A DNA stretch of 64,000 nt from Hyphomicrobiales bacterium (GTDB lineage: Bacteria; Pseudomonadota; Alphaproteobacteria; Rhizobiales; JAJFHB01). Below, in pieces: positions 907-26,166 of the stretch. The stretch covers positions 1 through 64,000 of the forward strand of contig JAJFHL010000308.1 of the NCBI GenBank assembly GCA_021775615.1. Direction: 5' to 3'. The position numbers and the translations under genes were made by a program. Each line of letters starts with the position of its first letter. Within the stretch, counting starts at the first letter, position 1. Below the pieces are notes generated by a model. It searched no databases. It was not told where the DNA came from and worked only from the letters and a program-made list of their open reading frames with translations.

Positions 907-1421
907 CAGCCGGCCGCCTCGATTTGGCGCGCCAGTTCCCGGCGGCCGCGGTGATGGGCATGGGTGATGGCGACCGCCAAGGCATCGGCCGAATCCTCAC
1001 TGTCCGGCTGGCACCGTGGCAGCAGCACGCCGACCATGGCGCGGATCTGGGCCTTGTCCGCATGGCCGACCCCGACCACCGACTTCTTGACCAGGTTTGG
1101 CGCATACTCGGCGACGAGGATGCCCGACTGCGCCGGCACGAGCAGCGCGATACCACGGGCATGCCCCAGTTTCAGCGTCGAACTGGCGCCCTTGTTGACG
1201 AAAGTCTGTTCCACCGCGGCTTCGTCGGGCTGCCATTCGCCAAGAACCGCGGCGAGGCGCTCGTGCAGTTGCAGCAGTCGCTCGGCAAGAGACAACTGGG
1301 CATCCGACGTCTCGGTGCCGTCCGCAATGTAGGAGATGCCGGTGCCGCGGCAGTCGATCACGCCCCAGCCGGTTCTTCGCAGTCCGGGATCGATGCCGAT
1401 CAGGCGTATGCTCTGGGTCAT
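906..1421 (-). CDS. ruvC: crossover junction endodeoxyribonuclease RuvC
   Basis: [23 protein letters not shown]... typical RuvC N-terminus; operon order. Confidence 0.96.
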
Positions 1422-1464
1422 GGTTGTGGCGCAATCGTGCTGGCCGCAATGGTTCCGCCGCTGG

Positions 1465-2214
1465 TCACGCCGCCGTCAGCTTGGCCATAACGTCGTCGGA
1501 GACTTCGAAATTCGCATAGACATTCTGAACATCATCGTCATCTTCGAGGGTGGCGATCAGCTTCAGGAGAGAAGACGCCTTGTCCTCGTCCACCGGTGTC
1601 ATGGTCTGTGGCTTCCACACCGGGCCGACCGACTCAGGCTCACCCAATGCGGTCTCCAGCGCCGAGGCCACATCGCCCAGATCCTCGAACCCGCAAATGA
1701 TGCTGTGACCCTCTTCAGACGAGTCCACATCGTCGGCGCCGGCCTCCAGGGCGGCTTCGAACACCGCATCCGCATCACCGGCCGCAAGCGGATAGACCAC
1801 CTGACCGACCCGGTCGAACATGAACGACACGGACCCGGTCTCACCAAGGTTGCCGCCGTGTTTCGAAAAGGTGGCCCGCACCGCGCTTGCCGTCCGGTTG
1901 CGGTTGTCGGTCAGCGCCTCGACGATGACGGCGACCCCTCCCGAACCATACCCCTCGTAACGCATCTCTTCATAGGTGTCGGCATCGCCCGCCTCCGACT
2001 TCTTGATGGCGCGCTCGATATTGTCTTTCGGCATGCTCTGGCCGCGTGCATTCTGGATCGCCAGCCGGAGCCGCGGATTGGATGCCGGATCGGAACCGCC
2101 CACCTTGGCCGCGATGGTGATCTCGCGCGACAGCTTGGAGAACAGCTTGGAGCGCTTTTTGTCCTGCGCCCCCTTCCGATACATGATGTTCTTGAATTGT
2201 GAATGGCCGGCCAT
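1465..2214 (-). CDS. yebC: YebC/PmpR family regulator
   Basis: [40 protein letters not shown]; conserved upstream of ruvC. Confidence 0.95.
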
Positions 2215-2381
2215 ATCGCCTCGTCCCTCGGTTTCCCCTTGCCGGCTGCCAGCGTGACCCGCGAACTCATCCGCGCCCCGCGAACCGGCCCAATCGGTTC
2301 ATGCTTGTGATTCCTGCAGGTCTTATAGAGCACTCTGGAGCTCATTTGAACAGTTTGACTAATCCCGGAATCCGGCGCCGA

Positions 2382-2396
2382 TTAATGCAGCCTTAA
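2382..2396 (+). promoter_or_regulatory. putative CtrA box TTAA-N7-TTAAC
   Basis: ttaatgcagccttaac: exact TTAA-N7-TTAAC, about 60 bp upstream of the 2458 ORF. Confidence 0.5.
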
Positions 2397-2457
2397 CCAC
2401 CATGCTGCGAAACTCCCTGCCGTTAGTTTGTAAGTTCAGTCAAGGGATGAGTGCGTA

Positions 2458-2817
2458 ATGAGTGACGACCAACAGATCGATAAAACCCTTGACCGCCTGG
2501 AACACGCGGTCGCCGGCCTGACATCTTCCACCAACATCGATGCGCTGCGATACATCCATCAGCTGGGTCAGAACCCCGGCTGCTCGCGCCACGCTTCGGA
2601 AGCGGCGCGTCATATCGCTGACCTGTGCACCCAGGCTCAGACCAGCCTCATCGAGAGCATCGATCACATGGAAGCGGACCACGACGACACCGCTCAGACC
2701 TATCTTGGCCATGCGCTTGTGCATCTGGACCAGATCGCAGAGACAGTGAGATCAGTCGACAGCCCGGCGCAAAGCAGCTCGCCCGTCGAACGCCGGCCGC
2801 AGAGCAACAAAGGCTAG
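2458..2817 (+). CDS. hypothetical protein (119 aa, predicted helical)
   Basis: ORF in intergenic space with own upstream region; no recognised family. Confidence 0.6.
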   Translation: MSDDQQIDKTLDRLEHAVAGLTSSTNIDALRYIHQLGQNPGCSRHASEAARHIADLCTQAQTSLIESIDHMEADHDDTAQTYLGHALVHLDQIAETVRSVDSPAQSSSPVERRPQSNKG

Positions 2818-2887
2818 CCGAACTCCGCAAGCTCGACGTTCCGCATGCAGTGCCGGGCGCAGGTCGTCTGTTCCCGGCACACGGCGC

Positions 2888-3706
<819 letters not shown>

Positions 3707-3710
3707 AAGT

Positions 3711-4337
3711 TCACTTTCCGCCCGTGCAGCGTTTTGCCCCCAACTCGGTCAGCATCCAGTCGAGCGGCTGATCCAGATCGCCATGGGGCACGCGTTTCAC
3801 TTCCTGCCCCGAAAACGCAACGCCGATGGCAACGATCTTGCGCTCCGATCGCGCGAGTTCGAGCGTGCGGTCATAGAAACCGCCGCCATAGCCGAGCCGG
3901 TAGCCTTCGGCATCGAACGCAAGCAACGGCACAAGAAGGATGTCGGGCTTGACCTCCGCCGCGTCTTCGCCCGGCACCGGTATGTCCCATGCGCCTCCCT
4001 CGAGCGGTTCGTCGCGCCCCCATTCGCGAAAGATCAGCGGCTGGGCGGGACCGGTCACCACCGGAAGACATGTCTTCCAGCCTTCTTTCGACAACCGGTG
4101 CAGCAGTGCGGTGCAGTCGATCTCCGAACCGTAGGGGTGAAATCCCGAAACCACGCCGCCGGTCTCCCTGTCCAGGAAATCAAGACCGGTGTCCTTGAGA
4201 CGCCGGCGCGCCTCGTCTGCCAGTTGTTCGTGCAGCGCCTTGCGTCGCTCGCCGGCCTTCTTGCGCAGCTTGCGTTTCGCTTTCGCGGTCTTTTCGTCCG
4301 CCAACTCACCCTCCCGAAACTGGCGACGTGGAGCCAC
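3711..4337 (-). CDS. 5-formyltetrahydrofolate cyclo-ligase (GTG start)
   Basis: LGYGGGFYDRTLE and PxLAFD motifs; location next to 6S RNA and zapA. Confidence 0.9.
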   Translation of the reverse strand: MAPRRQFREGELADEKTAKAKRKLRKKAGERRKALHEQLADEARRRLKDTGLDFLDRETGGVVSGFHPYGSEIDCTALLHRLSKEGWKTCLPVVTGPAQPLIFREWGRDEPLEGGAWDIPVPGEDAAEVKPDILLVPLLAFDAEGYRLGYGGGFYDRTLELARSERKIVAIGVAFSGQEVKRVPHGDLDQPLDWMLTELGAKRCTGGK

Positions 4338-4346
4338 GTCGCCGAT

Positions 4347-4505
4347 GCGAAGCCGCCTAGACCGGTGGAGCGGTACGATCCCGGGTGCCTACGAAAGTAG
4401 GTGGGCGCCAAGTGACAGGACCCACGAGTCCAACCAGAGTCAGCTCCCATAAGGATCGGTAAGGCCCCGGGGATGTGGTGCTCCTGCCGCGTCAGGCAGC
4501 CTCGC
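4347..4505 (-). ncRNA. ssrS: 6S RNA
   Basis: 159-nt intergenic region between zapA and 5-FCL; 12-bp closing stem (GCGAGGCTGCCT with AGGCGGCTTCGC, including G-U pairs); hairpin CACCTACTTTCGTAGGCACCCGGGATCG resembles alphaproteobacterial 6S 3' arm. Confidence 0.82.
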
Positions 4506-12833: not shown

Positions 12834-12970
12834 CGGCTTTTCGCCCACCGGGGCTTGACAACCAAACCCGCAAACGCACATACCCGCCGTGAGACTTCTC
12901 GCCGCTGCCGGACCGGGCACCGCGGCAGACACCACAATACTAAGAATAACGCAGCACCATCGAGGATCTC

Positions 12971-13534
12971 ATGAAGATCAACGGACACGAAATTCGCCCC
13001 GGTAACGTGATCCAGCACAAGGACACGCTGTGGGTTGCCGTCAAGGTACAAAGCGTCAAACCGGGCAAGGGCGGCGCCTATGCCCAGGTCGAGCTGAAGG
13101 CTCTCGTCGGCGGCACCAAGCTCAACGAACGCTTCCGTTCATCGGAATCCGTCGAGCGCGTCAGGCTTGAGCAGAAGGATTACCAGTTCCTCTTCGCCGA
13201 CGGCGACATGCTGACTTTCATGGACACCGAATCCTATGAGCAGATCGAGCTCGCGACCGACTTTGTCGGCGAACGCGCAGCCTTCCTGCAGGACGGTATG
13301 CAGGTGAAGGTGGAGAGCTATGAGGGCAAACAGCTCGGCATTTCGCTGCCCGAGCATGTCACGCTTGAAGTCACCGAAACCGAACCGACCATCAAGGGCC
13401 AGACGGCCTCGTCTTCCTACAAGCCGGCGATGATGGACAACGGCGTACGCGTCATGGTGCCGCCCTTCATCACGGTGGGTGAGAAGATCGTTGTCGATAC
13501 CAACGAAGCCACCTACGTAAAGCGTGCCGACTGA
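12971..13534 (+). CDS. efp: elongation factor P
   Basis: [45 protein letters not shown]. Confidence 0.96.
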
Positions 13535-13574
13535 TCTCCGCGCAACACTCCTCCTAACCTGATCCGGATCCCCG

Positions 13575-14366
13575 ATGCGACGCTCTGCGCTTGCCAATGT
13601 CATGATCGCCGCGGCGCGCAAGGCGGCGCGCGTCCTGCAACGCGATTACGGCGAAGTGGAAAACCTTCAGGTCTCGCTCAAGGGCCCGTCCGACTTTGTC
13701 AGCGCCACCGACCGAAAGGTCGAACAGATCCTTCACGAAGAGCTTGCGCGGGTGCGTCCCGACTATGGATTTCTGATGGAGGAATCCGGCAAGATCGAAG
13801 GCGCCGACAAAACCCACCGCTGGATCGTCGATCCCATCGACGGCACCACCAACTTCATTCACTCGATACCGCTGTTTGCCATATCCATTGCTCTTGAGCG
13901 CGATGGCGACCTGGTGGCGGGCCTGATCTACAATCCGATTTCAGACGAGCTGTTTTATGCCGAGAAGGGCATTGGCGCCTATCTCAACGATCGCCGGATC
14001 CGTGTCGCCGGACGCCAGGACCTGACACAGGCAGTCGTCAGCTGCGGCATACCGCACGCCCATCGCGGCGATCCGGATCAGTTCGGCCGCGAGCTTCAGG
14101 CGGTGCAGGCGCAGGTGTCCGGCATACGCCGCACCGGTGCCGCCGCTCTCGATCTGGCCTGGGTCGCCGCCGGCCGCTTCGACGCCTTCTGGGAACGCGG
14201 GCTCAGCCCATGGGACATCGCCGCCGGAATTGTCCTGATCCGCGAAGCCGGTGGCATGGTCAGCGACGTTGACGGCAAACCGGACGTCTTGAAGACCGGA
14301 AACATCCTGGCCGCCAACACCACGCTTCACCCGATGCTTGAGAAGAGCCTCAAATCGCAATCCTGA
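13575..14366 (+). CDS. suhB: inositol monophosphatase family protein
   Basis: WIVDPIDGTTNFIHSIPLFAISIAL, GAAALDLAWVAAGRFDAFWE. Confidence 0.93.
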   Translation: MRRSALANVMIAAARKAARVLQRDYGEVENLQVSLKGPSDFVSATDRKVEQILHEELARVRPDYGFLMEESGKIEGADKTHRWIVDPIDGTTNFIHSIPLFAISIALERDGDLVAGLIYNPISDELFYAEKGIGAYLNDRRIRVAGRQDLTQAVVSCGIPHAHRGDPDQFGRELQAVQAQVSGIRRTGAAALDLAWVAAGRFDAFWERGLSPWDIAAGIVLIREAGGMVSDVDGKPDVLKTGNILAANTTLHPMLEKSLKSQS

Positions 14367-14431
14367 TCATCACTGCAACACCAATGGGTACTATCCCCGC
14401 CGGCACCCGGCTTCGCGCTCGCACAGGAAAG

Positions 14432-14462
14432 TTGCAATCAATTTGTGTACAAATTTTATGCA
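14432..14462 (+). promoter_or_regulatory. putative CarH/LitR-like operator overlapping a promoter
   Basis: aatttgtgtacaaatt dyad; TGTACA and TATGCA spaced 11 bp; TTGCAA -35-like. Confidence 0.3.
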
Positions 14463-14539
14463 GAGTAACCGAATCACTGTAAACGTCTGAAAACAAAATA
14501 AAGATCTGACAGGGCCGAACAACGCTTGAAAGCGAGGCC

Positions 14540-15451
14540 ATGAGCAATACTCCTCCGGACGCCCTGTATTCCATCAAGACCGTGTCTCGTCTGACCGGTG
14601 TGAATTCCGCCACCATACGCTCATGGGAACGCCGCTACGGACTGATGGAACCGGCCCGGGCGCCCAATGGCAGGCGCGCCTACTCCGAAGCCGACATTCG
14701 CAAGCTTCGGCAGATCTCGGATCTGGTGCGTTCCGGTCATCCGATCGGCGAAATCGCCGGCCTGGCAACAGAACTTTTGCAGGAGCTCCAGGAGAACTCT
14801 TCGCCGCGGCCGCACAGCGCCGCCCGAAACCCGGCATACGACAAGTTGATGATGGCGGTATCGGCCGGTGACACTTCGCGGTTTCGTTCCGTTCTCGGCC
14901 AGACATTGAACAACCTTGACCCCCTGGAGGCAGTACAGGACGTCATTGCACCGGCGCTTCGCGAGATCGGAGAACGATGGGCGCGCGGCGATGTCGGCAT
15001 TGGCCTCGAGCATGCGCTGTCCGCGATCACCAAACAACTGCTGATGTCATCGATCAACTCCATGCGATGGGCAACCGGCGGCCCACGGATCGCGATCGCG
15101 ACACCGCCGAATGAACAGCACGAGCTCGGCGCCCTTTTGGCCTACTATCTGGCGTCCACCTTTGGAGCGGAATGCACCTATATGGGCCCGAACATGCCCG
15201 TGGCTGCCCTGGCCGACGCGATCGCCAGTCTGAACTCACAGGCTCTGGTGCTCAGTCTCATTCGAGAGCGTGACGATACCGATGCGATCGCCCTGCTCCG
15301 TGAGATCTCCGAACAGGTTCCCGCCTCGACCCAGATCTGGCTTGGAGCCGGCCGCCATGCGTCGCTCCGCACCGAACTTCTGCCGGAGCGCATCACCCTC
15401 TTCGACAGTTTCGAACCCTTCCTGGTGCGCCTCACTGCCCTGACGAAGTGA
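14540..15451 (+). CDS. MerR-family transcriptional regulator with cobalamin-binding domain (CarH/LitR-like)
   Basis: MerR HTH (YSIKTVSRLTGVNSATIRSWERRYGL), W-x9-EH (WARGDVGIGLEH) and ExHxxG (EQHELG) B12 motifs. Confidence 0.9.
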   Translation: MSNTPPDALYSIKTVSRLTGVNSATIRSWERRYGLMEPARAPNGRRAYSEADIRKLRQISDLVRSGHPIGEIAGLATELLQELQENSSPRPHSAARNPAYDKLMMAVSAGDTSRFRSVLGQTLNNLDPLEAVQDVIAPALREIGERWARGDVGIGLEHALSAITKQLLMSSINSMRWATGGPRIAIATPPNEQHELGALLAYYLASTFGAECTYMGPNMPVAALADAIASLNSQALVLSLIRERDDTDAIALLREISEQVPASTQIWLGAGRHASLRTELLPERITLFDSFEPFLVRLTALTK

Positions 15452-15606
15452 TCCGGCCGCCTCTCGCGAGAGCTCCCCGCCGCCCCTCATTCCGCATCAG
15501 GCGTATGCGGAATGTTCGCATACGAATTTCAGCTGTCAAATGATTGCAAAGTCGCTAGGTTGCTTGCCTCTGAGAGAGGTGTGAACGCTGCAGAAGGGAC
15601 GACACA

Positions 15607-16290
15607 GTGTTTGTAAACTCGTTGCACTCCAAACGACATTTCATAACCCGGCGGATCGATGCCATTCTGCCATTGGCCGCTTGCACCGCGCTGGCGCTTG
15701 GCGCAATGCCGGCAGCGGCTGAAAACCCGATTCAAGTGGACGACCGCATCGTCGTCGCCCAGTCCACGGCCGGGTTTCCGGTCAGGGCAGGCTCGTGGGG
15801 CGGCAAGGTACGCGCCGGACCCGGACGGCAATACCAGCATATCGATGGCCTGAGCGAAGGCGAAGACGTGGTGCTGCTTGAGAACACCCGCGTAATGATG
15901 GGCGACTATCCGTGGTTCAAGATCCAGTTCAAGAACGGCCGCATAGGCTATAAATGGGGTGGCATACTATGCGCCAAGGGAACTCCGGTCGTCGGCATAT
16001 TCGAATCCTGCCCGGGCTGGCAGAATGCCGCCCAGCCCGATCCGGCACCCGCCTCGGTGACCGTATCCTACTCCTGCGAAGAGGGCATTCCGATGATCGT
16101 GCGATATGTCAATACGGCGGAAACCAGCACCGCTTACTTCTCGCATGACAGCTTCCCGGAAGTGAAGCTGGACCAGGTGGTGTCGGGATCGGGGGCCAAA
16201 TATTCGAACGGATACTATACCTTGTCCACCAAGGGTCCCGACGCGGTGCTCGAATGGGAAGGCACCACAAGCGTTTGCTCGGAAAATTGA
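15607..16290 (+). CDS. secreted protein with SH3-like and MliC (C-type lysozyme inhibitor-like) domains
   Basis: Signal peptide; KVRAGPGRQYQHIDGLSEGEDVVLLE (SH3); VSYSCEEGIPMIVRYVN...SGSGAKYSNGYYTLSTKGPDAVLEW (MliC pattern). Confidence 0.8.
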   Translation: MFVNSLHSKRHFITRRIDAILPLAACTALALGAMPAAAENPIQVDDRIVVAQSTAGFPVRAGSWGGKVRAGPGRQYQHIDGLSEGEDVVLLENTRVMMGDYPWFKIQFKNGRIGYKWGGILCAKGTPVVGIFESCPGWQNAAQPDPAPASVTVSYSCEEGIPMIVRYVNTAETSTAYFSHDSFPEVKLDQVVSGSGAKYSNGYYTLSTKGPDAVLEWEGTTSVCSEN

Positions 16291-16306
16291 CAGGAACAGA
16301 CCGTAA

Positions 16307-17779
16307 GTGAGGCACACCGTGACTGATTTCCATTTCTCCAGGCCGTCCAGGTTCTTGCTGGCGGCCATCCTCTGGCTTGCCGTCTTCGCCGGCCACACAC
16401 CATTCGCCGCCGCACAGGACGCCGACCTTGTCTGGCAGTTTGACCAGTCCAACGATCCTTCCAACAAGGGCCGCAGCACCGCCTATCTGACATTCGGAAT
16501 TCCCGAGACCGATGCGGTACTGGTCAGCGGCTCCTGCGCCGCCGGATCCAGCGGCAATTTCTCCGTCATCCATCTTGGCGCAGACGTCGGAAAGCTGGCC
16601 GAGAGCGCCAGGGTGAAAGTCCGCTTCTCCGGCGGCGGCGAAGAGCACACGCTGAAGGGCGTTGTTTACGGCACCGAGCTCGAAGAGGGAGTTTCCGGCG
16701 TTCTGCTGCACATCGCCAATGACGATCCCATCTGGGCCATGATGCAGAACCTTGACGACATCAGCTATCAGATCCCCGGATACAGCGCCGCGTCGCTGCG
16801 CCTCACACAAGGCCGTGACAAAATCGCCGAGTTCAACGAGGCCTGCCGGTTTTATGCCGCACAGTTTGCCGACAATACTGACGACACTTCCCAGCAAAGC
16901 CCACCCGGTGGCGGCATCACCGAGAAGGAGGCGTTCCAGGCTGCGAGGGACCTGGGGACGATAGAAGCCTGGCAGGCCTTCCTGAGCAATTTCCCGACCG
17001 GTTTCCGGGCCGATCTGGCGCGCGCCTACCTCAAGGAACTGGGCGGCGCGCCGGTTGACAATGCCAACAACACCGACACCGGCAATACGGCGAACACCAA
17101 CAACCAGCCTCCGACCCAGGCGCCGGAACAGACCGTCGATCTGGGAGCGGGAACCTCACCGTGGCGCAATTACAACATGGAGATGGATGAGGGCAACACG
17201 ACGGTCTATGCGGCCTCGGTCGAATCCAACGGCATCGAGTTTGTCGCCTACTGCACCGGCAGGAAGGATATCGGCGCCCTCATGCGGGAAAGCCAGCGCG
17301 GCGTCTATCCCGATTTCGACGGACGCATCGAGCGCGGCCTCAAGGCGGCGCTGGGCACATTTCAGGACTTCAACAACGCGCACATCCCCATGCGGTTCAA
17401 TAATGGCAGTGAGTATTATGTGACCGCGGCCGTCATGGGTCTCACCGGCGAGGTCAGCTTCATCCACAATGATGAGGGCTTCCGCGCAAACGGACGGATT
17501 GTTCAGGACATCATGGGCCGCAGCACCATGACCATTTCCGCCCCGCCCTTCTCGGCCACGTTCCAACTGCGCGGCAGCAGGAACGCCATGTGCTCCATGC
17601 TGCGCAACTGCGGCGTGAGCGTCCAGGGCTGCGCCCGCCGGCAGAACACGACCAACACCTCTCGCTGCGGCTCCGGCGCGGTCTGGCTGGAAGGCCAGTG
17701 CGTCAATTATGGCGACATCGAAGCCTTTTGCGGGCCGGGCTACAAGCGCCAGGGCGCGGTGTGCGTATCGCGCTATTAG
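16307..17779 (+). CDS. secreted hypothetical protein with Cys-rich C-terminus (may extend in frame to 17845)
   Basis: Signal peptide, GTG start, C-terminal CGSGAVWLEGQCV...CGPGYKRQGAVCVSRY repeats. Confidence 0.75.
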   Translation: MRHTVTDFHFSRPSRFLLAAILWLAVFAGHTPFAAAQDADLVWQFDQSNDPSNKGRSTAYLTFGIPETDAVLVSGSCAAGSSGNFSVIHLGADVGKLAESARVKVRFSGGGEEHTLKGVVYGTELEEGVSGVLLHIANDDPIWAMMQNLDDISYQIPGYSAASLRLTQGRDKIAEFNEACRFYAAQFADNTDDTSQQSPPGGGITEKEAFQAARDLGTIEAWQAFLSNFPTGFRADLARAYLKELGGAPVDNANNTDTGNTANTNNQPPTQAPEQTVDLGAGTSPWRNYNMEMDEGNTTVYAASVESNGIEFVAYCTGRKDIGALMRESQRGVYPDFDGRIERGLKAALGTFQDFNNAHIPMRFNNGSEYYVTAAVMGLTGEVSFIHNDEGFRANGRIVQDIMGRSTMTISAPPFSATFQLRGSRNAMCSMLRNCGVSVQGCARRQNTTNTSRCGSGAVWLEGQCVNYGDIEAFCGPGYKRQGAVCVSRY

Positions 17780-17858
17780 GAAACAGAAGCCCAGTGTCCG
17801 CAAGGCCTCGTCTGGGAAGTGGACCGCTGCGTCGAGGACGACTGACGCTCGAGAGATC

Positions 17859-17898
17859 TTGCCCGGCGCACAGATGTAATGCGCCGGGCATGGTTTTG
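17859..17898 (+). terminator. intrinsic terminator
   Basis: tgcccggcgca-N9-tgcgccgggca stem followed by tggtttt. Confidence 0.7.
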
Positions 17899-18046
17899 TC
17901 ATAATTTCAGGTAAGTAGTACTGATGTGCTGCGTGCATCCTGTTCGCGGTGCCCAAGAATTTGCTTTTTGAAGGCCTGCACTCTGTCGTATCAACACCAA
18001 ACCGTTGAGTTCGAACTGATTCGCAACACTTCACGGGAATCGGGTT

Positions 18047-19105
18047 GTGGATATGACCACTGACTCTCAATATACCGTCCTGGTGCCGCCGCGCCTCTAT
18101 CTCGCCCGCATGATTGTTTTTCTGATCCTGGTCGGATTCATCGCGGCAATTCTCTACTCACAGATCATTCAGGCCTTTATTGCCAATCCGGGGCTGAACG
18201 GGCTGATTCTGGGTGTCCTGCTTTTGGGCATCGCCTATGCCTTCCGCCAGATCTTCCGGCTGTTTCCCGAGGTCAACTGGGTCAACAGCTTCCGCATCGC
18301 CGATCCGGGCCTGGAAATCAACCATACGCCGGTTCTGCTGGCCCCCATGGCAGCGCTCCTGCGCGACCGCCAGGGGCGCATGTCCCTGTCGACCCTGTCC
18401 ATGCGATCACTGCTGGAATCGCTGGCCAGCAGGCTCGACGAGGCGCGCGACATCTCGCGCTACATGATCGGGCTCCTGATATTCCTCGGCCTGCTCGGAA
18501 CCTTCTGGGGGCTGCTCAACACCGTCACCGCGGTCGGCGCCACCATCGAGTCCCTCGATATCTCGCAAAACGAGAGCGGGGCTGTCTTCGAGGAGCTCAA
18601 GACCGGCCTCGAAGCGCCGCTCGCCGGCATGGGCACCGCCTTCTCGTCATCGCTGTTCGGCCTTGCCGGATCTCTGGTGCTTGGCTTCCTCGACCTGCAG
18701 GCGAGCCAGGCTCAGAACCGGTTCTACAACAATCTCGAGGACTGGCTGTCCACGGTCACCGACATCTCGGCCGGAGAAGGCGGCGACTACACGGTTCCCC
18801 ACTATCTGCGTATGGACCTGCGCGACATGCAGGGTCAGATAGAGCGCATAGACAGCACGCTGCACGAGACGATCACCGCCGAACCGGACGACCCGGTTGA
18901 CATGGAGGCGATCGAACTCCTCGCCGACGCGGTGCACGGGCTGGTCAAGCAGATGCGCGAAGAGCAAAAAGTCGTGCGGCAATGGGCCCAGGCCCAGGCC
19001 GACCAGCAGACCGAGTTCAGGTCTGTGCTTGAGAAGCTGGCCGAAAACAAGGAGCCGGCGGCGCGCAAGGCGCCGCGCACGAGAGCAAAGAAGGTTGAAA
19101 GCTGA
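18047..19105 (+). CDS. MotA/TolQ/ExbB-type proton channel family protein
   Basis: Transmembrane segments; LLGTFWGLLNTVTAV...GLEAPLAGMGTAFSSSLFGLAGSLVLGFLD. Confidence 0.85.
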   Translation: MDMTTDSQYTVLVPPRLYLARMIVFLILVGFIAAILYSQIIQAFIANPGLNGLILGVLLLGIAYAFRQIFRLFPEVNWVNSFRIADPGLEINHTPVLLAPMAALLRDRQGRMSLSTLSMRSLLESLASRLDEARDISRYMIGLLIFLGLLGTFWGLLNTVTAVGATIESLDISQNESGAVFEELKTGLEAPLAGMGTAFSSSLFGLAGSLVLGFLDLQASQAQNRFYNNLEDWLSTVTDISAGEGGDYTVPHYLRMDLRDMQGQIERIDSTLHETITAEPDDPVDMEAIELLADAVHGLVKQMREEQKVVRQWAQAQADQQTEFRSVLEKLAENKEPAARKAPRTRAKKVES

Positions 19106-19108
19106 TCC

Positions 19109-20137
19109 ATGGCCATAGCCAGACGCCAGCGCCGCCCAGCGGATGCCTTTTACTGGCCCGGCTTCGTCGACGCCATGGCAACGCTGCTGCTGGTCATCAT
19201 CTTCCTGTTGTCGATTTTCATGCTGGTGCAGTTCATGCTGGCGCGCGACATCTCCGGCCAGGACACAGCGCTCACTCGGCTGCGCTCGCAGATCGCCGAA
19301 CTCTCCGAGCTTCTGGCGCTTGAGAAGGTTTCGTCCTCCGAGCTGCAGACGACGCTCGCCAGCCTGGTCGATGAACTGGCGACAGCCGAAGACGAAAAGA
19401 ACCGGGTAACCGGACTGCTCGCGACCGAGCGCGGCAACGCGAATGAAACCGGCGGGCGCCTTTCAGCGCTGGAGGGCAAGCTGGCGGAAGAGAGGACGAT
19501 CCGCTCTCAGGCCCTCGCCCAGGTCGAGCTTCTCAACCAGCAGATTGCCGCACTGCGCCGCCAGCTTGGCGCTCTGCAGGCCGCGCTCGACGCGTCGGAA
19601 ACCCGCGACACCGAGGCCCAGTCGCAGATCGAGGACCTTGGCCGCCGCCTCAACGCGGCCCTGGCCCAGCGCGTCCAGCAACTTGCCCGCTACCGCTCGG
19701 AGTTCTTCGGCAAGCTGCGCGAGATCCTGAGCCAGCGCTCCGACATCCAGATTGTCGGCGACCGCTTCGTGTTCCAGGCCGAGGTGTTCTTCGCCACTGG
19801 CGAAGCCGACCTCAATCCGCAAGGACAGAGTGAGCTCGACAAGCTTGCGACCGCCCTAACCGAACTTCAGGGCATCATCCCTGACGACATCAACTGGGTG
19901 CTCCGCATCGACGGCCACACGGACAATGTGCCGATTCAGACTGCGCCCTTCCCGTCCAACTGGGAGCTTTCAACGGCGCGCGCCATCTCCGTGGTGCGTC
20001 ATCTGATCGACAATGGCGTGCCTGCCAAGCGCCTGGTCGCCGCCGGCTTCGGCGAATTCCAGCCACTGGAACCGGGCAACACGATTGATGCCAGACGCAA
20101 GAACCGCCGCATCGAACTGAAGCTGACCGAGCGTTGA
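19109..20137 (+). CDS. OmpA/MotB-type peptidoglycan-binding protein
   Basis: N-terminal TM, coiled coil, C-terminal RIDGHTDNVPIQT...NWELSTARAISVVRHLIDNGVPAKRLVAAGFGE. Confidence 0.9.
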   Translation: MAIARRQRRPADAFYWPGFVDAMATLLLVIIFLLSIFMLVQFMLARDISGQDTALTRLRSQIAELSELLALEKVSSSELQTTLASLVDELATAEDEKNRVTGLLATERGNANETGGRLSALEGKLAEERTIRSQALAQVELLNQQIAALRRQLGALQAALDASETRDTEAQSQIEDLGRRLNAALAQRVQQLARYRSEFFGKLREILSQRSDIQIVGDRFVFQAEVFFATGEADLNPQGQSELDKLATALTELQGIIPDDINWVLRIDGHTDNVPIQTAPFPSNWELSTARAISVVRHLIDNGVPAKRLVAAGFGEFQPLEPGNTIDARRKNRRIELKLTER

Positions 20138-20183
20138 TCAAAGCGCTGGCGGACGGGGTGATCCCAACTCAAAGGAAGATCTG

Positions 20184-20966
20184 ATGGACCTGAAAGACAC
20201 GGTCTGTGTTGTAACGGGTGCTGGAGGCGGCATCGGCGCTGCCCTCGCCCGCGGGCGTGCCGCACGCGGCGCGGCCCATGTGGTGGTGGCGGATCTCGAC
20301 GGCGATGCGGCCGCAAATGTCGCGCAGGACATCGCCGGCACCGGGGTCGCCTGCGATGTCGGCCACGATGGTGCGGTCGAGGACCTGGTCGCCGAAACCG
20401 AAAACCGTCACGGGCGCATTGACCTGATCTGCTCCAATGCCGGCATCCTGCGCTCGGACGCACCAGGCGGCCACGTGGCCTCTGCTCCCGATGAAGACTG
20501 GATGGAGTGCTGGACAGTCAATGTCATGGCCCATGTGCGCATTGCACGCGCCGCCCTGCCGGCAATGCTGGAACGCGGCTCCGGCGCCTTTCTCATAACG
20601 GTGTCTGCCGCCGGCCTCTTGAACATCATCAACAACGCGACCTACGCCGCAACCAAACACGCCGCGCTCGGTTTTGCCGAATCCCTCGCCATCACCCATG
20701 GCGACGACGGCATTGCGGTGGCGGCTCTTTGCCCGCAGGCGGTCGACACCGCCATGGCGCGCGGCGCACGCCAGCCGAGCGGCGCCGGTGTCGACGGCAT
20801 CATGTCGGCTGAAGATGTTGCCGCCGCTGGGCTGGACGGTCTCGAACAGGGCCGGTTCCTGATCCTGCCGCACCCGCAGGTGCGCGAGTATTTTCAGAAC
20901 AAGGCGGAAAACTACGACCGCTGGGTCGGCGGCATGCGCAAGTTCCGGCGCTCGCTGGTTTCGTGA
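20184..20966 (+). CDS. SDR family oxidoreductase
   Basis: VVTGAGGGIGAALA Rossmann motif, SNAG, YAATKHA. Confidence 0.88.
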   Translation: MDLKDTVCVVTGAGGGIGAALARGRAARGAAHVVVADLDGDAAANVAQDIAGTGVACDVGHDGAVEDLVAETENRHGRIDLICSNAGILRSDAPGGHVASAPDEDWMECWTVNVMAHVRIARAALPAMLERGSGAFLITVSAAGLLNIINNATYAATKHAALGFAESLAITHGDDGIAVAALCPQAVDTAMARGARQPSGAGVDGIMSAEDVAAAGLDGLEQGRFLILPHPQVREYFQNKAENYDRWVGGMRKFRRSLVS

Positions 20967-20975
20967 CCGGACCGC

Positions 20976-23900
20976 CTAGCGGGCGCCCTCGCCCACGACC
21001 ATGAACGGCGCCCAGTAGGCGGGATGCGATTTCTGCGGATCGCCGCTCTCGATCAGCGTCAGCATGGACCGGCGCAACGCTTCGGCGCGGCCAATTTCCG
21101 GGTTGGCTTCGAGCTGGGCGAAGGTCTGCGTTGTCAGTTCCACCGCTGCCTGCGAATTGACCGGCCAGTGCGAGACGAGCAGTGAACGAGCCCCGGCATA
21201 GAAGAAGGCGCGCGCCAGTCCGGAGAGTGCTTCCGCATTGCCGTTTTCGCCGGCCGCCGTGTTGCAGGCCGATAGAACCACCCAGTCCGCATCGAGCTTG
21301 AGCTGGGCAACCTCCGACGCGGTGAGCAGTCCGTCATCGTCTTTGCTCGCCTCGTCAGGCGGGGTGAGAACCAGGGCGGGCTCCGCCAGCCCGTTCAGTT
21401 CGCCGGTGACAAGCCCGTGTGTGGCGAAATGGACGACACGGTAATTCGACAGGTTGTCCGCTTCATTCATTGCCTTGATCGCCGCCTCGGTCGCATTGGC
21501 GCCAAGCAGTATCTCGCTCTGCGGCGCTCCGAGACTGCGAGCGACACCACACAACTCGCCCGTGGTTTCGGGAAGTGGTGACAGATGCCGGACCTTTTCG
21601 GCATCCGCCTCAACACCGCGAAAATAGCTGGCGATCGTCTCGGCTCCGCCACCGCTTGCGATGTGGAAGCGTCCGTCCCAGTCAGCACAGCTCTTTACCC
21701 GGAAGGCGCTGTCGTCTGACCCGCTTGCACCCTTGAGCAGCGGATTGCCGAACCCGATGAAGGGGTGTTCGGCATTGCTGGCCTTGGCGTTCCGCCGCAA
21801 TGCGGCAAGCGAAGCCACAGAGGGCAATACGGTGATCGCGTGATCACGCACCAACCATGCCGCGTCGGCGATGCCGCCTGTCTGGTCACCGTCAGGGCCA
21901 GGTGCCTCGCTCACCAGAACCTGCCACGGCAGTGACGTGAGCGGCCCCGAAGGTACGATGATCAACTCCTTGCCCTTTATGATGCTCTCGACCGGACCCA
22001 ACAGCTGTGCATAGAGATCGAAGGCCGCTGCGAACAGGCCGACATCATCGCCGGCTGAGCTGATCGCTCCTCTTGTCCGGTCAATTCCGAACCCGCTGCG
22101 CAAGACGCGTATTTTCTCCGCAAGCGCCTTTGAACCTGCAGGTATGCGAGCCCATTTGATGCCGCTCCTGGACAACGCCCAGACAAAACTCTCCTCCGGT
22201 ACCGGGCCGGTCTCCTGCACATCGAGAAAGAACACCAGCGCCTCGTTGCCGCCCAGGAGTTTCTGAGCCGTTGCCAGCGCGAGCGGCTCCGGATTGGTGA
22301 GCGTGGAATAGTCGCGAAAATCCGTTGCAAGCGTGCGGTCGATGGCTGCGGCGCGATTGTTGAATTCGGACATTTTCAATTGCAAGGCCGCAACAAGATT
22401 CCTATCACGCTCGCCGACCGGCTTGGAAATTGCGGCAATCAGCTGCTGGTGTGCCGTTTTCCAATTGCTGGCGAGGTCCTGTCGTTCGCGCACCAGATCA
22501 CTTAGCGACGATTTGTCGGCCTGCAGCCGCGTTGCCATTTGGGCAAGAGCCCGCGCGGCACGCGATGCCTGTGCACGCTGTGCCAGCCTGAACGCTTCGT
22601 CCCTCAAACCATCACGTTCGTCCGTATCGGCATCAGCGAGGTGCTTGAGCACACGTACCGATCCGTGAAAAGCTTGGCGCATCGACGCTGCAGCGGACGG
22701 GCCTTCGGCGGAAAGTGGGTTTGAGTGAGCATCTCCGAGGGTCGCATCCTCAGCGATCAGGACTTCGGCTGCGCGCCGGAAATGTATAAGGGCCGCCGCC
22801 CAGCGTTTGCGAAAAAGTTGGTTGTAAGCCAGATTGTTCAGGCTGTTCGCGAGCCCCGGGTCGGTCTCGCCGAGAACATTTTCCCATATGGCAAGGGCGC
22901 GCTTCAACAAGTCCCCGGCCTTTTCACGGTGGCCTTGATCGCCGTAAACAAGTGCAAGATTGTTCAGAACCTGTGCAACATTCGGGCTGTCCGGACCGTA
23001 GGTTGTTTCGACCGCGCTAATCGCACGCTGCAGGAGTGATTCCGCCTCGGCAAGACGTTTCCGCTGACGATAGAGTTCGGCGAGGCTAATCAGACCACTG
23101 ACCATGTCCTCTGGAGCCTTTGCTTCGTAGATGGCTAGGGACTGCTTGAACATCGACTCCGCGTCCCGATAGCGGAGCTGCGCCCAGTAAGCCACGGCCA
23201 GTTCGTGGATGCTTGCGGCAACGGCGAGGTGGTTGGAGCCCTCCGACGCCTTGAGGATCTCGACGACACGCTCGAGCATAGCCGTGGAGACTTCATGCTT
23301 TCCCTGCCGCCGGTAAATTTTGGCCATGTCGATGAGGATCACTCCCACCCTCTGGTCTTCGGCGCCAACCGATTCCTCCAGAATTCCAAGAGCTTGTCTG
23401 AGCAGAGGCTCCGCCTCCGCGAACCTTCCTTGTTCATTGTAGAACAGGGCGAGGTTGCGAAGTGTCCTCGCGACCTCCACATGGCGCTTCCCGGATGCAT
23501 CTTCCCGCGCCGTCACGGCATATCGATAGAACTGCTCGGCCTCACGCTTACGGTTTTGGCCACGGTAGATGTTCGCGAGTATGCTCACTGCGACTGCCAG
23601 TTCATGCTTGTTCGGCCCGGTAGCGTTTTCCCAGGTCGTGACGGCACGCTTCTGAACCCGCGCTGCCTTGTCGTCCGCCTTCTGCATGTAATAGACGTAG
23701 GCCAGGTCCTCGAGACTCCGCGCGAGGTCGGGATGCGGCTCGGAATAAACGAGTTCGTGAATTTCCAGTATGCGTTCAAGCAGCGGTTCAGCCTGGTGGT
23801 ATTGACGCCTGGTGATGTAGATGTCGCCGAGCGCGTCTAGTGTCGCCGCGACCAACCTATTGTTCTTGCCGAGCGCCTTCTCGCGGATCGAAAGCATACG

Positions 23901-24212
23901 CTTGAGCAGTAGGATTGCCTCACGCTGATCGCCGTAACTAAGCAACAGCTCGACAACCACACCAAGCGCGTCCGCATAATCCGTGTGTTCCGTTCCCAAT
24001 AGGGTGCCGACCAGATCGGCATGGCGTCTGGCCAGCGGCAGGGCATCTGAAATCCGGCCCTGTTCACGCAGGTCAGCTATTTGTTCGGACAGGGCAACTG
24101 TTTCTTCAGCCTGCCGTTGCGTGAAGAACTCGGCCGCAATCCACAGAAGAGCCGCTGCAACAGGCAAAATGAGAAATGCCAAAAACCTGTGTGATGCGAG
24201 AAAATCAATCAT
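20976..24212 (-). CDS. membrane-anchored TPR-CHAT domain protein (caspase-like)
   Basis: N-terminal TM; tandem TPR_12-type repeats; C-terminal CHAT with HFATHG and VVLSACNTA catalytic motifs, LVSHWPVNS. Confidence 0.92.
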   Translation of the reverse strand: MIDFLASHRFLAFLILPVAAALLWIAAEFFTQRQAEETVALSEQIADLREQGRISDALPLARRHADLVGTLLGTEHTDYADALGVVVELLLSYGDQREAILLLKRMLSIREKALGKNNRLVAATLDALGDIYITRRQYHQAEPLLERILEIHELVYSEPHPDLARSLEDLAYVYYMQKADDKAARVQKRAVTTWENATGPNKHELAVAVSILANIYRGQNRKREAEQFYRYAVTAREDASGKRHVEVARTLRNLALFYNEQGRFAEAEPLLRQALGILEESVGAEDQRVGVILIDMAKIYRRQGKHEVSTAMLERVVEILKASEGSNHLAVAASIHELAVAYWAQLRYRDAESMFKQSLAIYEAKAPEDMVSGLISLAELYRQRKRLAEAESLLQRAISAVETTYGPDSPNVAQVLNNLALVYGDQGHREKAGDLLKRALAIWENVLGETDPGLANSLNNLAYNQLFRKRWAAALIHFRRAAEVLIAEDATLGDAHSNPLSAEGPSAAASMRQAFHGSVRVLKHLADADTDERDGLRDEAFRLAQRAQASRAARALAQMATRLQADKSSLSDLVRERQDLASNWKTAHQQLIAAISKPVGERDRNLVAALQLKMSEFNNRAAAIDRTLATDFRDYSTLTNPEPLALATAQKLLGGNEALVFFLDVQETGPVPEESFVWALSRSGIKWARIPAGSKALAEKIRVLRSGFGIDRTRGAISSAGDDVGLFAAAFDLYAQLLGPVESIIKGKELIIVPSGPLTSLPWQVLVSEAPGPDGDQTGGIADAAWLVRDHAITVLPSVASLAALRRNAKASNAEHPFIGFGNPLLKGASGSDDSAFRVKSCADWDGRFHIASGGGAETIASYFRGVEADAEKVRHLSPLPETTGELCGVARSLGAPQSEILLGANATEAAIKAMNEADNLSNYRVVHFATHGLVTGELNGLAEPALVLTPPDEASKDDDGLLTASEVAQLKLDADWVVLSACNTAAGENGNAEALSGLARAFFYAGARSLLVSHWPVNSQAAVELTTQTFAQLEANPEIGRAEALRRSMLTLIESGDPQKSHPAYWAPFMVVGEGAR

Positions 24213-24316
24213 TGTCCGGAACTTAGAAACGCCCGAACTCTACTGCCGCCGGCGGCCCGGGACAACGGGGCCACGACATTTGTAACAATTGGTCAAGCCA
24301 GATTTGCGTGAGATCA

Positions 24317-24347
24317 AGAGCGGTTTACGTTTGCGCGGAACTGCTCT
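24317..24347. repeat. short palindromic intergenic repeat overlapping ABC transporter stop
   Basis: agagcggtttacgtttgcgcggaactgctct, imperfect dyad of the agagcagttc...gctct rhizobial type. Confidence 0.5.
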
Positions 24348-26166
24348 AAGCCTCGAATTGCAGCTCCGCCAGGCGCGCATAGAGCCCGCCCTGCTGCATC
24401 AGCTCGTCGTGGCTGCCCTGCGCCACCACCTTGCCTGCATCCAGCACCACGATGCGGTCGGCGTTGCGCACGGTGGCGAGACGGTGGGCGATGACCAGGG
24501 TCGTGCGGCCCTGCATCAGGTGCTCCAGCGCCTGCTGCACCAGCTTCTCCGATTCCGCGTCGAGCGCGCTGGTGGCTTCGTCAAGCAGGAGGACCGGCGC
24601 GTCTTTCAGAAGCGCCCTTGCCACCGCGAGACGCTGGCGCTGTCCGCCCGACAGGGCGATGCCGCGCTCGCCGAAGACCGTCTCGTAACCCTTTGGCGTG
24701 CCGGAGATAAAGTCGTGGGCCAGCGCCGCCCTGGCGGCGGCCTCGACCTCGTCGTCGCTCGCCTCGGGGCGGCCATAGCGGATGTTCTCCTTGGCCGACA
24801 TGGAAAAGATCACCGTGTCCTGCGGCACCAGGGCAACGAGGCCGCGCACCACGTTTGGATCGGCGACCGCCACATCCACCCCATCGAGCCGCACCGAGCC
24901 GCCACGTGGATCGTAGAACCTGAGCAACAGGTTGAAGATGGTGCTCTTGCCGGCGCCCGACGGGCCGACAATGGCCACGGTCTCACCGGGCGCCACCGCG
25001 AAGGACACATCGTTGATCGCGGCAAAGTCGGGCCGGGTGGGATAGGAGAACATGACGTTCTCAAACCTGATCTCACCGCGCGCCGGTTCGGGGATCGGCT
25101 GCGGATTGTCGACCACTTTGATATCGGGCTCGATCGAGAGCAGTTCAGACAGGCGCTCCGCCGCGCCCGCGGCCGCCTGCACCTGCCCCCAGACTTCCGA
25201 CAGCGCCCCCATGGCGCCGGCCGCAAAGGCGGCGTACAGGACGAACTGGGAAAGCTCTCCGGCGCTCAACCTGCCGTCGAGCACATCCCTGGCGCCATAC
25301 CACAGCACCGCGACCACGCTGGAGAAGGTGATGAAGATGATACAGGCAGTGAGCAGCGCCCGGGCGCGGGCACGCTGGCGCGCCGTATCGAACGCCGTGC
25401 CGGTGACCCGCGAGAACGTCTCCTGATCGCGGAACTGGCGCACGAAGGCCTGCACGGTCTGGATCGCGGTGAGCCGTTCGGTCGCAAAGGCGGCGGTGTC
25501 GGCAAGAGTGTCCTGGGCCTTGCGGGAAAGACGCCTGACCCAGCGTCCAAACACCACAAGCGGCAGCACGATGAACGGCAGGGCAAGGAGCACCAGCCCA
25601 CTCAGTTTGAGGCTGGTCACCACCATCATGACAACCGCGCCGATGAACAGCACCATGTTGCGCAGGGCGACCGACGCAGTGGAACCGAAAGCCTCCTTGA
25701 TCTGCGTCGTGTCGGCGGTCAGCCGCGACAGCACTTCGCCGACCGGCGTCACTTCGTAAAAGCTGAGGCTCAGTTCGGTGAGTTTGCGGAACACTGCATC
25801 GCGCAGATCCGCCACCACACGCTCGCCGATCCAGGTGACGAAATAGAACCGGGACGCGCTTGCCACCGCAAGCACCAGGGCCACCACGATCAGCATGCCG
25901 AAATACTGGTCGATGAAGAGGGCGTTCTCCCGGCTGAAACCGTTGTCGATCATGCGCCGTATGGCCAGCGGCACCACAAGTGTCGCCGAAGCCGCTGCCA
26001 TGAGCGCCACCAGGGCGGCAAGAATTCGTCCCCGGTAGGGCGCGAGGAACGGCACGATCCTGCGCAGCGGCTGCAGGGTGGTCGCCCGCGCCGCCGCGGT
26101 ATCGGTCTGCCCGTCTGTCGAGCTGGATTGCGCTGGTCGTGCGCTATGGTGAACGTCTTCCGACAC
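24346..26166 (-). CDS. ABC transporter, fused permease/ATPase (MsbA-like)
   Basis: TM domain then [10 protein letters not shown] Walker [33 protein letters not shown]. Confidence 0.94.

Follow-up and report, generated by a model that had tools for sequence, protein, structure and literature searches.

To our knowledge, those bacterial CHAT proteases whose roles have been established, namely Csx29 (in Craspase) and SAVED-CHAT, operate in the cytoplasm. Craspase TPR-CHAT (Csx29), a component of type III-E CRISPR that is bound to gRAMP/Cas7-11 and cleaves Csx30, provides the nearest solved CHAT structure, with TPR repeats, a CHAT fold, and a His-Cys dyad. The enzyme is kept inactive and is then allosterically activated, Cys627 being needed for cleavage (Csx29; PMC9729208). 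Separase, a eukaryotic protein that targets cohesin, likewise has a helical superhelix ahead of its caspase-like protease domain, and DdvA (PDB 8rw5, 8rot), an anti-sigma factor according to its PDB title, is a membrane protein of comparable fold in its TPR and CHAT regions. In Anabaena, HetF, which has a CHAT domain, TPR repeats, and a single TM segment, functions together with the divisome, its CHAT part corresponding to aa 1-555 (PMC8406250). Prokaryotic C14 metacaspases often carry one N-terminal helix, which is possibly a signal peptide (PMC3501461); they are caspase-like, as is the protein described here, but belong to another family (PF00656 vs PF12770). Proteins of the present kind are also widely annotated; relatives processed by PGAP are already named "CHAT domain-containing tetratricopeptide repeat protein". 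Those of alphaproteobacteria, such as Rhizobium ruizarguesonis WP_075226143 (plasmid records), show the same TPR-linker-CHAT order and share the dyad, and many of them have N-terminal export signals, the best showing 37-44% identity to the protein studied here, which differs from them in having a signal anchor without any obvious cleavage site and in occupying a unique genomic position.

The gene is located in the window, i.e., the whole stretch of 64,000 nucleotides analyzed. Its ORF has exactly the coordinates given in a preliminary description of this DNA, which did not state the strand (minus); it begins with an ATG start codon and contains no internal stops. The features of the locus are as follows:

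18047-20137, plus strand: ExbB-like and OmpA/peptidoglycan-binding gene pair, core, left border of the insertion (OmpA in 191/199 genomes)
19109-20137, plus strand: OmpA gene (PRK09039 equivalog)
20138-24345, no strand: lineage-specific insertion of 4.2 kb in the OmpA-ABC interval (neighbour comparison)
20184-20966, plus strand: co-inserted SDR oxidoreductase gene, 260 aa (adh_short, E 3e-40)
20976-24212, minus strand: ORF of the TPR-CHAT protein (P0001), complete, 1078 aa (AlphaFold2 mean pLDDT 88.7, pTM 0.85)
20985-22019, minus strand: CHAT caspase-like protease domain, residues 732-1076 (PF12770 and fold match)
21264-21266, minus strand: codon of Cys983, catalytic Cys of LSACNTA (invariant, 44/44)
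21417-21419, minus strand: codon of His932, catalytic His of HFATHG (invariant, 44/44)
22700-24050, minus strand: TPR superhelix of the kinesin-light-chain type, residues ~55-505 (Pfam, PDB sequence matches, and model helices)
24123-24185, minus strand: N-terminal hydrophobic helix, residues ~10-30, predicted signal anchor with N-in/C-out orientation (hydropathy)
24346-26166, minus strand: ABC transporter (transmembrane and ATPase), core, right border of the insertion (178/199 genomes of the order; Pfam)

The architecture initially proposed, a TM helix followed by a TPR array and a CHAT domain, is borne out by Pfam and hydropathy, and the two motifs quoted at that time, HFATHG and LSACNTA, are both present, including His932 and Cys983. 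The CHAT domain (PF12770) was matched with an E-value of 1.5e-59 and a score of 202 bits (cut-off, 24), over positions 6-289 of the 289 in the profile; TPR_12, TPR_10, and TPR_NPHP3 repeats were identified at residues ~95-445, and a helical linker joins the repeats to the CHAT domain. In the alignment of homologues, His932, Asp960, Cys983, and Thr985 are invariant (44/44), and motifs of the HFATHG and LSACNTA types are both kept at 78 of 80 further, independently found loci. The conservation of the catalytic residues, on which the preliminary description had let its interpretation depend, is therefore strict. With a full-length domain above the cut-off and a conserved His and Cys, the protein is, as judged from its sequence, a member of the CHAT family, from which we infer proteolysis.

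In the AlphaFold2 model, which was built with 44 sequences (the CHAT part was also modelled alone; pLDDT 86.2), the membrane helix leads into a continuous TPR superhelix and then into the CHAT domain. The fold neighbours of the whole protein detected by Foldseek include separase, Craspase TPR-CHAT/Csx29 (E 6e-12), and the transmembrane anti-sigma factor DdvA, while the top 17 matches of the CHAT part are all Craspase TPR-CHAT (E 1.8e-12), followed by separases, DdvA, SAVED-CHAT, and the secreted gingipain R; the TM-scores are modest (0.4-0.5). Separase shows ~12% identity to our protein. In sequence searches of the PDB, only the TPR part finds solved relatives, the kinesin light chains KLC1/2 (E 2e-47), and the sequence-profile search with the CHAT part yielded TPR and coiled-coil noise, with no CRISPR chain at E<=1. 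The modelled fold fits regulated proteolysis, its nearest neighbours being Craspase TPR-CHAT, separase, and SAVED-CHAT. A component of Craspase was considered and rejected: neither gRAMP nor Csx30 was found at the locus, the gene has SDR, OmpA, and ABC genes as neighbours with no cas-like gene among those annotated, no CRISPR-effector match was obtained when PADLOC was applied to the ORFs of the window at E<=1e-10, and there is no match to Csx29 at the sequence level. Since the TPR-CHAT fold and active site occur here without any CRISPR context, the protein is best regarded as a TPR-CHAT-like protease outside Craspase.

The OmpA and ABC genes bordering the insertion are convergent neighbours in 91 of the 100 scoreable genomes of the order, i.e., those carrying both border genes on one scoreable contig, and the gap between the aligned ends is less than 150 bp in 32 of these 91 genomes. 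In the two genomes of the same family that carry both genes, this gap amounts to 22 bp (G002) and 38 bp (G001) vs 4.2 kb in the window; the stop codons of the two genes are ~6 bp apart in G002, and the coding regions overlap slightly in G001. The same-genus genome G003 (61% complete) is devoid of both border genes. No CHAT gene was detected at this junction in any of the sampled relatives (CHAT matches, 199 genomes). The insertion anticipated in the preliminary description, which called for a synteny comparison, is thus real, and the gene is not syntenic in the sampled relatives: the comparison supports a lineage-specific insertion of the TPR-CHAT gene between core genes that otherwise adjoin each other. 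Across the order, the junction is a recurrent insertion spot, with gaps of between 11 bp and 8.4 kb; in G040, one unrelated gene encoding 361 aa is present there. As regards traces of the insertion mechanism, the window contains no tRNA, no integrase was recognised among the neighbours, the flanks show no obvious repeats, and the GC content is unremarkable. A short palindrome-like sequence, GAGCAGTTCCGCGCAAACGTAAACCGCTCTTGATC, which we take to resemble a dispersed rhizobial repeat, follows the ABC stop codon at 24305-24345. No promoter-like site was found upstream of the TPR-CHAT gene.

The neighbouring genes were considered as possible partners. The SDR gene is rare in the order, where a match at E<=1e-50 was obtained in only 10 of 199 genomes, and its best relative (73% identity, in G001) follows a cluster of branched-chain amino-acid transporter genes; with few relatives in the order and this best one beside a transporter cluster, the SDR was rejected as a partner. 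The ExbB/OmpA pair consists of core genes and is not a credible partner either. This pair scores on the ZorA/ZorB models because of the family resemblance of OmpA to MotB, and Zorya was rejected, OmpA being a core gene and a PRK09039 equivalog. In the TPR-CHAT protein itself, PADLOC found nothing above noise (generic TPR, 28 bits; BovA, 15 bits), and none of the genes adjoining its own was recognised as encoding gRAMP, a gasdermin, a STAND ATPase, or an adaptor. Phage cargo was likewise rejected, the matches in phage records being weak TPR ones in Wolbachia phage WO only. Since ExbB and OmpA are encoded by core genes, the SDR gene has its place elsewhere in a relative, and no known defence system matches the locus, no partner appears to be encoded next to the TPR-CHAT gene.

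Relatives of the CHAT protein are present in 34 of 199 genomes of the order, part of these being TPR-only matches; in the scan of genome contigs, a query with the single sequence gave no match and a query with the alignment did. No close orthologue was found among the sequences compared, the highest identity being 54% over 371 columns on the CHAT side. In a maximum-likelihood tree of the CHAT parts, the window protein forms a separate, weakly supported branch among the TPR-CHATs of Hyphomicrobiales, away from the two paralogues of the same genome included in the tree (on C376 and C200). The 240 plasmid records with relatives, every one below 60% identity, indicate that the family is mobile and do not give the source of the window copy.

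The only hydrophobic 19-mer peak of the protein is at residues 4-32 (Kyte-Doolittle 2.24). The N terminus, MIDFLASHR-hydrophobic-FFTQRQAEET, is basic before the helix and acidic after it, and because of this signal-anchor charge pattern an N-in/C-out topology is predicted. Homologues show Sec signal peptides at the position of this helix. The protein is probably membrane-anchored and facing the periplasm, as judged from hydropathy. A basic-then-hydrophobic N-terminal segment was detected by a simple hydropathy rule in at least 61 of the 74 usable homologous ORFs (those not cut by a contig start) vs 26% of background long ORFs. Of the 13 homologues failing the rule, several are truncated or narrow misses. 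Many of the signals of the homologues include clear Ala-X-Ala sites or a lipobox. Examples of these N-terminal signals are ...MVAALAAAIPAAAGAQT and ...LALAASACLAAPSSAQ. Sec signal peptides or membrane anchors therefore appear to be widespread in the family, on the basis of the hydropathy rule rather than a trained predictor. It is this predicted export that distinguishes the window protein from the cytoplasmic CHAT proteases of CRISPR defence, and its frequency among the homologues favours a regulated protease of the periplasm, anchored in the inner membrane, over a cytoplasmic defence caspase. Our search of the literature returned no paper on exported CHAT proteins and none on the anti-sigma factor DdvA.

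We consider it somewhat more probable than the alternatives taken together that the protein is a membrane-anchored, periplasmic, regulated caspase-like protease with an intact active site. The uncleaved N-terminal signal anchor would tether it to the inner membrane, with the TPR superhelix and the CHAT domain in the periplasm, and the groove of the KLC-like TPR array might bind a protein or peptide ligand, whether a substrate, an inhibitor, or a stress signal. Binding of this ligand would shift the linker between the TPR and CHAT parts and open the His932/Cys983 pocket, which might then cleave a periplasmic or membrane protein, as in the allosteric activation of Csx29 and separase; this mechanism is proposed purely by analogy with the work on Csx29 (PMC9729208). 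The protein would be an accessory, lineage-acquired regulator, separate from the OmpA/ExbB and ABC functions. A difficulty for any periplasmic protease of this type is the catalytic Cys, which would have to be kept reduced or to withstand oxidation.

Whether the CHAT fold plays a purely structural role, the protein binding ligands in the periplasm and signalling through protein interactions as a sensor or scaffold, is a question raised by DdvA, which is among the top fold matches of both the whole protein and its CHAT part, and by the long TPR array of the cargo-binding, KLC-like type. We regard this as unlikely, because strict invariance of the dyad and of the neighbouring Asp960 and Thr985 would not be expected in a pure scaffold and because the ~9 residues ahead of the helix leave the protein without a cytoplasmic signalling domain, which is also where it differs from DdvA.

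A role in defence was suggested in the preliminary description. In such a reading, infection or stress would activate the CHAT domain, and cleavage of a target would kill or arrest the cell, as in Craspase or in the conflict systems based on caspases and trypsins. The fold matching Csx29 and the position of the gene within a lineage-specific insertion are consistent with such an effector, and trypsin/caspase-type peptidases are the usual effectors of bacterial conflict systems (PMC10907252). Some relatives do cluster with genes of this type, C14 genes being present within 8 kb at 8 of 80 named loci and trypsin genes at 6 of 80 (raw counts). In the same genome, the cluster of the paralogue on C376 (positions 12870-25640; L043) has all its genes on one strand; they encode two C14 caspases, of 834 and 781 aa, the 1333-aa TPR-CHAT paralogue, and trypsin-like proteases, three in tandem. 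The window copy, by contrast, is solo, with neither a C14 caspase nor a trypsin gene beside it. The suggestion is not upheld by the PADLOC search or by the neighbouring genes and phage records, the Zorya-like matches are those of the core pair, and the signal peptides suggest the periplasm rather than the cytoplasm, so that a defence or programmed-death effector seems to us still less probable than a scaffold.

The idea of a membrane-tethered protease on the cytoplasmic side (C-in), nearer to cell-division or developmental regulators such as HetF, with which the protein shares CHAT, TPR, and one TM segment when compared by description, is the least plausible of the three, since HetF, a divisome and heterocyst protein, has its CHAT part first (PMC8406250) and hence the reverse of the TM-TPR-CHAT order, while the charge pattern of the window protein is N-in/C-out and the signal peptides of its homologues look cleavable.

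The source genome carries at least 20 C14 caspase-domain genes and is thus that of a caspase-rich alphaproteobacterium. At four loci in Rhodobacterales (L072, on plasmid NZ_CP085162.1, L130, L147, and L148), the same combination of a caspase, a trypsin, a TPR protein of ~940 aa, and a short CHAT protein is encoded, along with a patatin-like lipase at three of the four loci and a conserved protein of ~235 aa at some of them; this conserved module has the look of an exported protease system not yet described. In another genome (G017), a gene on the minus strand at 1249-4434 of locus L053 encodes a fusion of a penicillin-binding-protein OB domain, a C14 caspase, and an M23 peptidase; it adjoins a TPR-CHAT gene, and terminase-like and DNA methylase genes are present nearby. 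Very tentatively, the exported TPR-CHATs, some of them encoded alongside a patatin-like lipase, C14 caspases, and trypsins, might form an uncharacterised extracytoplasmic caspase-like network of alphaproteobacteria serving periplasmic signalling or cell-death cascades, with the window gene as one of its branches, a solo one.

Returning to the periplasmic regulated protease, the copy in the window lends itself well to testing, since it is a single gene without any co-encoded partner. If exported proteins with an intact dyad do form a widespread group, caspase-like regulated proteolysis would operate in the periplasm too.
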